From Flavobacterium indicum GPTSA100-9 = DSM 17447 (GTDB lineage Bacteria > Bacteroidota > Bacteroidia > Flavobacteriales > Flavobacteriaceae): 64,000 nucleotides of DNA. Each line of letters starts with the position of its first letter. Position 1 is the first letter of the stretch. The stretch covers positions 1,364,001 to 1,428,000 of the forward strand of contig NC_017025.1 of the NCBI RefSeq assembly GCF_000455605.1. Direction: 5' to 3'. The notes beneath the pieces were generated by a model. It was not told the origin of the DNA. It made no database searches and saw only the letters and a program-made list of their open reading frames with translations. The position numbers and the translations under genes were made by a program. Below, in pieces: positions 41,626-45,099 of this stretch.

Positions 41626-44600
41626 ATGGAACAAGTACAACCTTACCAACCAAAAAATAAAGTTCGAATTGTAACAGCCGCGTCCTTATTTGACGGTCAT
41701 GATGCTGCAATTAATATCATGCGTAGAATTATTCAAGCTACTGGCGTTGAAGTCATTCACCTTGGACATGATAGAAGTGTGGAAGAAGTAGTAAATACTG
41801 CTATTCAAGAAGATGCAAATGCAATCGCGATGACATCTTACCAAGGAGGTCACAACGAATATTTCAAATATATGTACGATTTGCTGAATGAAAAAGGAGC
41901 AGGACATATTAAAATATTTGGTGGCGGTGGCGGTGTAATTCTTCCTTCTGAGATTGAAGAGTTACATGCTTACGGTATCACTAAAATTTATTCTCCAGAT
42001 GACGGGCGTGCATTAGGTTTACAAGGAATGATTAATGATTTAGTTCAAAAATCCGATTTTTGCCCCCCAACCCCCGATGGGGGAGCTTCCAAAATTGTGG
42101 AAAATCTTAAAGAAAAAGAAGTCAATACAATTTCACGATTAATTTCACTTGCTGAAAACAATCCTGATAATTTCTATGAAATTTTTACGAAATCATTAGT
42201 AGCTCCCCCTTCGGGGGCGGGGGGGGCTGTTCCAGTTTTAGGTATCACCGGAACAGGTGGTGCTGGAAAATCATCATTAGTAGATGAATTAGTACGTCGT
42301 TTCTTAATCGATTTCCCTGAAAAAACTATCGGATTAATTTCGGTTGACCCATCAAAACGTAAAACAGGTGGTGCTTTATTGGGTGATAGAATTCGTATGA
42401 ATGCTATTAACAATTCTCGTGTTTACATGCGTTCGTTAGCAACTCGTCAATCGAATTTAGCCTTATCGAAATATGTAGCGGAAGCGATTCAAGTGTTGAA
42501 AGCGGCAAAATATGATTTAATCATTCTAGAAACTTCTGGAATTGGACAATCCGATACTGAAATTCTTGATCACTCTGATGTTTCTTTATACGTAATGACA
42601 CCTGAATTCGGTGCAGCAACACAGTTAGAGAAAATCGATATGTTAGATTTTGCGGATTTAGTAGCGTTAAATAAATTCGATAAACGTGGCGCTTTAGATG
42701 CCATTCGTGATGTGAAAAAACAATACCAACGCAATCATAATTTATGGGATGTAGATCCAGATAAAATGCCTGTATTTGGCACTATCGCTTCTCAATTCAA
42801 CGATCCTGGTATGAATACCCTTTACAAATCTATCATGGATAAGATTGTTGCCAAAACGGGAGCGGATTTACAATCGACTTTCGAAATTACACGTGAAATG
42901 AGCGAGAAAATCTTCGTAATTCCTCCTCACAGAACGCGTTATTTATCGGAAATTGCAGAAAACAACAGAAAATACGATGAAACGGCGCTAACACAAGTAG
43001 AAGTAGCGCAAAAATTATACGGAATTTTCAAAACGATTTGTTCAGTTGCAAATATAAATTCTCGAGCAATTGAAAATAGCTTGATAATTAAATCGGGGTT
43101 AAATCAAGATGAGATTCTGAAACAAGTTCAGAATGACAAAGATAAATCAGTTTTCTTAGACTTATTATTAAAAGAATTCGACCGCGTAAAAATGAATTTA
43201 GACCCATACAATTGGGAAATTTTGTTGACTTGGGAAGAAAAAGTAAACAAATACAAAAATCCAGTGTATTCGTTTAAAGTTCGTGATAAAGAAATCAAAA
43301 TTGAAACGCATACCGAATCGTTGTCTCATTCTCAAATTCCAAAAGTTGCCTTACCTAAATACCAAGCTTGGGGTGATATCTTAAAATGGAATTTACAAGA
43401 AAACGTACCTGGAGAATTTCCTTTTGCATCTGGATTGTATCCATTCAAGCGTGAGGGAGAAGATCCAACGCGTATGTTTGCAGGAGAAGGGGGTCCAGAA
43501 AGAACAAATCGTCGTTTCCATTATGTTTCTTTGGGAATGCCAGCAAAACGTTTATCTACCGCCTTTGACTCGGTAACATTATACGGAAATGACCCAGACC
43601 ACAGACCTGATATTTACGGAAAAATTGGTAATGCGGGAGTTTCTATTTGTTGTTTAGACGATGCTAAAAAGTTATACTCAGGTTTCGATTTGAGTCACCC
43701 TGCGACTTCAGTTTCTATGACCATTAACGGTCCAGCACCCATGTTGTTAGGATTTTTTATGAATGCTGCTATCGACCAAAACTGTGAAAAATACATCAAA
43801 GAACACGGTTTAGAAGCAGAGGTTGAGAAAAAGAAAAAAGAACTATACGACGATAAAGGTTTAGAAAGACCAAGATATAATGGTGAATTACCAGAAGGAA
43901 ATGATGGTTTAGGTTTATTGCTTTTAGGAGTAACGGGAGATCAAGTATTGCCTGCGGATGTTTACCAAGATATCAAAGTGAAGACGTTAGCACAAGTCCG
44001 TGGAACGGTTCAAGCGGATATTTTAAAAGAAGATCAAGCACAAAACACTTGTATTTTCTCAACGGAGTTTGCGTTGCGTTTGATGGGAGACGTTCAAGAA
44101 TATTTCATCAAGCAAAATGTGCGTAACTTCTATTCGGTTTCGATTTCAGGTTATCATATTGCTGAAGCTGGAGCGAATCCAATAACACAGTTAGCGTTTA
44201 CTTTAGCTAATGGTTTCACTTATGTGGAATATTATTTAAGTAGAGGAATGAACATCAACGACTTCGGTCCGAATTTATCGTTCTTCTTCTCAAACGGAAT
44301 TGATCCTGAATATGCTGTAATCGGTCGTGTAGCACGTAAGATTTGGGCAAAAGCCATGAAAAACAAATACGGAGCTAACGAAAGAGCGCAAATGTTGAAA
44401 TATCACATTCAAACCTCTGGTCGTTCGTTACACGCGCAAGAGATTGATTTCAATGATATTCGTACGACTTTACAAGCGTTGTACGCGATTTACGATAACT
44501 GTAACTCGTTACATACGAATGCTTATGATGAGGCAATTACGACTCCAACAGAAGAATCAGTGCGTCGTGCAATGGCCATTCAGTTGATTATTAATAAAGA

Positions 44601-45099
44601 ATTAGGTTTAGCGAAAAACGAAAATCCAATCCAAGGTTCGTTCATTATTGAAGAATTAACCGATTTAGTGGAAGAAGCGGTTTTAGCTGAATTTGATAGA
44701 ATCACAGAAAGAGGAGGCGTTTTGGGTGCTATGGAAACCATGTACCAAAGAAGTAAAATTCAAGAAGAATCATTGTATTACGAAACTTTGAAACATACAG
44801 GAGAATTCCCAATCATTGGTGTAAATACATTCTTGAGTTCAAAAGGTTCTCCGACAGTGATTCCAGCAGAAGTAATTCGTGCAACGGAAGAGGAGAAACA
44901 ATTCCAAATTAAAACCTTAGAGAATTTACATCAAGCTAAAGCTAAAGAAGTTGAAAATCAAATCTCAATTATTCAAGAGGCAGCAATTCAAAACCATAAT
45001 ATTTTTGAAAAATTAATGGAGGCTGCAAAAGTGTGTTCGTTAGGCCAAATTACTTCAGCTTTATTTGAAGTGGGTGGACAATATAGAAGAAACATGTAA
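41626..45099 (+). CDS. icmF: Fused isobutyryl-CoA mutase IcmF (B12 domain, G-protein chaperone, mutase)
   Basis: A 1157-aa adenosylcobalamin-dependent acyl-CoA mutase with chaperone fused in. Domain order: B12-binding (about 12-140; D23-x-H25-D, SYQGGH, GGGGG), MeaB-like GTPase (about 200-420; Walker A G206[41 protein letters not shown]) and mutase barrel (about 590-1150). At the two positions that distinguish substrates, this enzyme has Phe618 (in TRMFAGEG) and Gln806 (in AQNTCIF) where methylmalonyl-CoA mutases have Tyr and Arg. This is the isobutyryl-/n-butyryl-CoA type. Three in-frame palindromic elements interrupt interdomain linkers (near residues 146-155, 192-201 and 492-505). Gene stands alone, ending in a terminator. 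Confidence 0.93.
42062..42087 (-). repeat. G/C-rich palindromic element inside icmF, copy 1 (reverse)
   Basis: A C6, AA, C5, GAT, G5 run ending in AGCT interrupts otherwise AT-rich coding sequence and encodes CPPTPDGGA. Read on the minus strand it begins AGCTCCCCCATCGGGGG, aligning to copy 2 at 42201. It folds into CCCCC/GGGGG. Confidence 0.75.
42201..42228 (+). repeat. G/C-rich palindromic element inside icmF, copy 2 (forward)
   Basis: Begins AGCTCCCCCTTCGGGGG and ends in a G8 run (42219-42226) then CT; encodes APPSGAGGA. Same element as copy 1 in the opposite orientation, with about 113 bp of normal icmF sequence between them. Confidence 0.75.
43101..43140. repeat. Palindromic element of a second type inside icmF
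   Basis: ATTCTGAA-ACAAG-TTCAGAAT (43114-43134) is a perfect 8-bp stem with a 5-nt loop, read through in frame as [10 protein letters not shown]. From memory this sequence type is a dispersed short repeat of Flavobacterium-like genomes; no second copy was seen in this window. Confidence 0.65.

Follow-up and report, generated by a model that had tools for sequence, protein, structure and literature searches.

Results

The icmF gene and its two inverted palindromes

The window, by which we mean the whole 64-kb stretch of DNA analysed, comes from a single-contig genome of 2.99 Mb and contains an icmF gene in which three domains are fused into one product. The features discussed here are as follows.

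41626..45099, + strand: icmF, an open frame of 1157 aa fusing B12-binding, MeaB GTPase and methylmalonyl-CoA mutase domains
42062..42087, + strand (C-rich strand on +): palindrome copy A, in frame as CPPTPDGGA, residues 146-154
42088..42200, + strand: the segment between the palindromes, comprising linker allele "B" and the first helix of the MeaB domain
42201..42228, - strand (G-rich strand on +): palindrome copy B, inverted, in frame as APPSGAGGA, residues 192-201
43113..43138, + strand: a palindromic repeat of a second, unrelated type, GATTCTGAAACAAGTTCAGAATGACA, translated as EILKQVQND within the icmF frame; it lies in the MeaB-mutase interdomain stretch, outside the bracket

Copy A reads GCCCCCCAACCCCCGATGGGGGAGCT and copy B reads AGCTCCCCCTTCGGGGGCGGGGGGGGCT. 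The reverse complement of copy A begins AGCTCCCCCATCGGGGG, which makes A and B inverted copies of a single G/C palindrome. The sequence together with the frame 41626-45099 confirms the first-pass annotation in describing them as inverted and both read through. That annotation also placed both copies between the B12 and GTPase domains, which is correct for copy A only. Pfam locates the B12-binding domain (PF02310) at residues 14-114, MeaB (PF03308) at 170-406 and the mutase (PF01642, best stretch) at 787-1150, and finds no DUF559 in the protein. With MeaB starting at residue 170, copy B falls inside this domain, between its first helix and the P-loop strand, and not in a plain inter-domain linker. 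Within the window GCTCCCCCNTCGGGG is found, allowing up to 3 mismatches, at copies A and B only (0.17 expected), and two or more such matches arose in 1 of 100 shuffles. As single-stranded DNA the copies fold somewhat better than shuffled sequences (z -1.6 to -2.9, secondary structure only), and in the best fold the C block pairs with the farther G block, not with the nearer one.

Two single-contig genomes have a broken icmF frame (L233, L240). The break in G135 is at palindrome B, between query residues 195 and 200, and that in G262 is about 5 residues before palindrome A, at query residue 141; each could be G-run slippage or a sequencing error. The second repeat type of icmF has a core, TGAAACAAGTTCA, with 19 exact copies in the genome, and eight cores, four of them exact, lie together at 1268332-1268684. 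Copies elsewhere are also translated, in a yggS-like gene (L032) and within a long frame of L027, and similar peptides are present at the same spot of icmF in other genera (L133, L100, L124).

A dispersed family of palindromes

The original proposal was that a small palindrome had landed twice in a tolerant linker, and a genome-wide search for further copies was suggested. The answer depends on the pattern used: the 17-mer occurs exactly in icmF only, with one more place at 2 mismatches, and a looser motif, CCCC-(0-3)-AACCCC-(3-9)-GGGG, finds the rest of the family. The looser motif is present in 26 of 61 genomes of the genus, while the same pattern written backwards gave 5 hits in total across all 61; overlapping matches inflate the hit counts and leave the number of genomes unaffected. 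Several of the copies form inverted pairs at short spacing.

The source genome has about ten copies, mostly inside genes and often as inverted pairs. The genes icmF, recG and a C39-peptidase/ABC-like gene carry two each and a primase-like gene carries one, all of them read in frame. Another codes the last residues of a yggS-like gene, and the remaining two are intergenic; recG and the three "-like" hosts are what we take these genes to be from their sequences. The pair in the C39-peptidase/ABC-like gene (L274, at 217593 of G000) is in frame and surrounds about 14 residues. Among 34 distinct elements (30 fetched loci, two duplicates excluded), 11 sit 30 or more codons deep in a frame of at least 150 codons, counting two (L172, L174) that are possibly upstream of the true start and two that make up an inverted pair in one gene (L190). 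This gene and L187, both presumably acyltransferase-like, carry the palindrome in the lipoyl-domain linker.

The icmF palindromes differ among species, with C5, CCTCC and CCCTTCC types, and in the variants read the loop codon keeps one frame at site A. Next to palindrome A, four loci with the CCTCC variant (L093, L102, L251, L252) have about 20 additional residues (NTDASxLxxLGK). Since these features recur in many genomes, single-contig ones included, an assembly artefact is unlikely.

Exchange of the icmF linker between species

We sorted 124 distinct icmF genes by the linker that they carry. A plain linker, allele A, is present in 88, allele B with palindromes in 25, and allele B counted as palindrome-free in 11, this last class wrongly including L091, whose palindromes are decayed. 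On a gene tree built without the linker the A/B states need 19 changes and the element 17, at least 9 of them forced by well-supported branches (quick trees, LG+G4, with some long branches flagged). Vertical descent of a single insertion, which would put the element-bearing genes into one clade, was rejected by the AU test (p-AU 1.5e-86). The closest icmF, that of Flavobacterium cucumis (L056; 95% identity over 610 core columns), lacks both palindromes, as the first-pass annotation had anticipated for a close relative.

Close pairs of A and B genes show what has changed. Five pairs have flanks at least 90% identical (the source genome/F. cucumis, L060/L071, G161/L071, G127/L064 and G198/G004); their flanking DNA is 90-95% identical and their linker proteins only 36-40%. 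In G198/G004 and G161/L071 the identity is 93-100% in the 15 nt on each side of the linker. Because the whole linker differs between sisters, at 72 versus 66 codons, a segment has been exchanged and no linker has been split by an insert. We therefore reject simple insertion of a palindrome into an unchanged icmF linker, as the entire linker differs and the net change in length is small. The part of the original proposal that invoked a dispersed family and in-frame tolerance within linkers stands, and the simple landing in a native linker does not. Neither a cut site nor a target duplication was found; what the element does is take the place of the linker. The flanks of G127/L064 are less alike downstream (0.88) than upstream (0.93), so that the exchanged tract may extend past the palindrome.

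Twelve of 14 linkers from other families are A-like by eye and two (L264, L268) are ambiguous, so allele B was probably gained. Of 398 genus genomes, 52 gave a single match to a 68-residue query across the B segment, and all 30 fetched loci were in icmF. A B-type helix without palindromes occurs in a 10-row clade that includes Myroides, Empedobacter and Avrilella, and its presence in this outgroup clade means that the B segment is no private cargo of the element. The same Pro/Gly linker in distant genera had been named as a finding that would count against a mobile palindrome. Pro/Gly pieces do occur at both sites in many species and, going by source names, in Polaribacter, Flavimarina and Psychroflexus; the occupancy of the two sites is patchy across species.

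Bracketed nuclease domains in other genes

In recG of the source genome the two palindromes enclose an in-frame DUF559 domain (PF04480, E 7e-32), for which the nearest solved structure is 3hrl, "Endonuclease-Like Protein" (E 5e-19); we take DUF559 to belong to the PD-(D/E)XK/Vsr-like class. PF04480 is present in 30 of 61 genus genomes, and embedded copies occur at two sites of metH as well as in recG, leuS and a UvrD/AddA-like helicase. We name these genes from sequence motifs, and the metH insert was also checked with Pfam. Of 60 fetched DUF559 loci, 41 are in frames of at least 350 aa; 29 of these have palindromes at both ends, 8 at a single end and 4 at neither. For the remaining 19 the corresponding counts are 6, 4 and 9, so that 10 of 19 stand-alone genes also have a palindrome. 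These counts were made with a detector that misses stems with more than 1 mismatch, against a hairpin background of 0.30 per kb. The orientation of the DUF559 brackets is that of the icmF bracket, and icmF copy B is letter for letter the downstream palindrome of five metH elements (L284, L286, L287, L289, L292).

At the metH cap/B12 junction, matched in 55 of 61 genomes, we fetched 30 loci and parsed 29. A linker of 11-13 residues was found in 25, the source genome among them, and an element of 147-164 residues in the other 4, including F. cucumis. The site thus has occupied and empty alleles in sister species, with the source genome empty and F. cucumis occupied. Searching proteins with the metH insert, we obtained 1060 hits, and 119 of the best 120 combine DUF559 with methionine-synthase domains; the other is, by its source name, an isoleucyl-tRNA synthetase (P0139) with DUF559. 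Methionine-synthase-like proteins among these (P0121-P0135, 743-1702 aa) score high enough to suggest two DUF559 inserts in one protein. By Pfam, neither the metH insert of L284 nor the recG insert of the source genome has a Hint or splicing domain, and the nuclease therefore seems to remain in the host protein.

A tree of 50 DUF559 domains places 36 of 37 embedded copies in one branch (support 95), the exception being L307. Labelled by host site the tree needs 8 changes against 30.1 in shuffles, with the leuS copies in three places. The domains were cut by a motif rule, DF..ExDG, which skipped 10 of 60 loci, and long branches were flagged. As the motif was the cutting rule, its presence in the tree is not countable as evidence; two strong embedded copies that were skipped (L314, L328) also have it. 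Median dN/dS of the nuclease is 0.22 in metH (68 pairs), 0.19 in the helicase (18 pairs) and 0.31 in leuS (26 pairs), with pairs at dS of 2 or more dropped and dS still high (medians 1.2-1.4). The embedded nucleases cluster largely by host site and look to be under purifying selection.

Of the 29 genomes whose B match is strong, 21 have an embedded DUF559 (E below 1e-20, frame at least 490 aa); of the remaining 57 in the 61-genome set, 14 do (Fisher p 2.7e-5, from a hand count, ignoring kinship and with 4 of the 29 linkers unparsed). The other 8 of the 29 have no strong embedded copy. Against the explanation that we favor, no DUF559 inside icmF was found among the 60 DUF559 loci or the 120 listed of 5896 proteins.

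Discussion

We consider it probable that the two icmF palindromes are the inverted end-pieces of a Flavobacterium family of in-frame elements, present here as a bracket without nuclease, and that the linker was replaced by short-tract recombination. Such elements would occupy in-frame spots where the host protein tolerates a Pro/Gly-rich loop. The nuclease-bearing members consist of a palindrome, a DUF559 domain and an inverted palindrome, read through in MetH (two sites), RecG, LeuS and the UvrD-like helicase, and the icmF bracket would be a nuclease-less member enclosing a piece that IcmF needs, the first helix of MeaB. Short-tract recombination would then put allele B in the place of allele A in the icmF of other species, while the flanks stay native. 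The exchange may start from breaks, made either by a DUF559 nuclease acting in trans or through folding of the palindromes as hairpins or intrastrand triplexes. Repair of breaks at palindromes or at empty sites from an occupied homologue would copy the bracketed segment, as in homing, and the segment copied would be the nuclease in metH and the helix of IcmF in icmF. Both the break and the copying are our reconstruction of how the element might move.

The simplest alternative is ordinary interspecies recombination of a fast-evolving linker, in which passive palindromes hitch-hike and are kept as code for a flexible loop. The palindrome-free B helix of the outgroup clade fits this well, as does the lower similarity of the downstream flank in one close pair, and the flanks QGMINDLV and LGITGTGG are conserved enough for recombination to act on. 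It accounts less readily for the sharp edges of G198/G004 and G161/L071, or for the same palindrome family being bracketed and patchy in metH and other genes, and we regard it as unlikely, if the strongest of the competing accounts. Slightly less likely still are two separate insertions of a passive palindrome resembling the Rickettsia elements, with the pairing incidental. Single palindromes are indeed found within and between genes, and the icmF sites bear different variants in different species, but the sites and their orientation are constant, an equal bracket surrounds DUF559 in other genes, and sisters differ over the entire linker, beyond the palindromes. Copies A and B look like one bracket, comparable to the DUF559 brackets of recG, metH, leuS and other genes.

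We consider a REPIN, a REP element moved by the Y1 transposase RAYT, very improbable and reject RAYT as the mover. In favor of it are the inverted pairs at short spacing, the Y1 genes of 41 of 61 genomes and a degenerate look-alike seen by eye at the RAYT locus of G033 (L205, 1341-1376, about 140 nt upstream of the Y1 gene). Against it, none of 30 RAYT loci has a palindrome within 420 nt according to the detector, the source genome's own RAYT is flanked by a different palindrome of 30 nt, and three genomes (G078, G030, G004) have several palindromes and no Y1 hit; a RAYT flanked by CCCCCNAACCCCCNNNGGGGG would revive this largely refuted reading. In G000 we noted an open RAYT-like Y1 gene (L166, at 411150) flanked by the 30-nt inverted palindrome of another type, and a broken one (L167, at 1651978).

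Returning to the nuclease-less bracket, we offer more tentatively a wider reading, which we hold to be a real possibility though short of an even chance. The family would be selfish and would home in the absence of splicing. Its nuclease-bearing form would be a DUF559 domain within triplex-type palindromes, with the frame open throughout, able to spread through important genes (metH, recG, leuS, helicases) and yet stay as a translated domain of its host; nuclease-less brackets, such as that of icmF, would carry a piece of the host protein as cargo and drive its replacement across species. If so, the element is mobile without splicing and without having to land outside genes, and through it the protein linkers of a bacterial group are being swapped as modules. 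This would also link the unexplained spread of palindromes and triplex motifs with database entries that show nuclease domains in frame in methionine synthase and other enzymes. In-frame palindromes and triplex motifs are already known. For an in-frame DUF559 bracket of this kind no paper was found by titles and abstract openings, in a search that mostly fell outside subscription journals.

Comparison with known systems

With RAYT/REPIN systems our elements share inverted palindrome pairs; they differ in that the Y1 transposase lay beside the palindrome in none of 30 RAYT loci. The Rickettsia palindromic elements are dispersed and translated in frame, many of them in DNA synthesis and repair genes, and intragenic REPs are likewise read in frame (PMC3733652). 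Dispersed palindromes translated within genes are the common ground. Here too we find a dispersed family, in frame and absent in a relative, though not a simple insertion into an unchanged protein. The passages of PMC3733652 available to us name no gene between palindromes, whereas here the bracket holds a nuclease or, in icmF, an exchanged segment; the string "flavobacteri" does not occur in the text of that paper.

The intrastrand triplex motif (TM/PIT) of E. coli and more than 260 bacterial genomes has been linked to genomic instability (Holder 2015, PMC4666352). In architecture it resembles our palindromes, with a C block, a G block and a second G block, a second loop of TTA in one type, and inverted pairs of two types (PMC4666352). 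In the asymmetric palindromes of relatives the third block matched a mirror copy better than a direct copy in 42 of 89 hairpin flanks (both sides counted), equally in 41 and worse in 6; the icmF blocks are symmetric (C5/G5) and thus uninformative on this point. The E. coli motif is reported to be always intergenic and without an association with mobile elements, while ours is in frame and beside a nuclease (Holder 2015, PMC4666352).

Inteins and homing endonuclease genes differ from the present elements in that these have no splicing domain, as seen in the metH insert of L284 and in the recG insert of the source genome, and in that palindromic inverted repeats bracket the nuclease. The icmF copy departs further in having no nuclease. 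An abstract in the homing literature names PD-(D/E)-XK and EDxHD families. What our elements share with homing genes is an in-frame nuclease at fixed sites in conserved genes, patchy in sister species, with occupied and empty alleles in metH and nuclease lineages that are largely site-specific.
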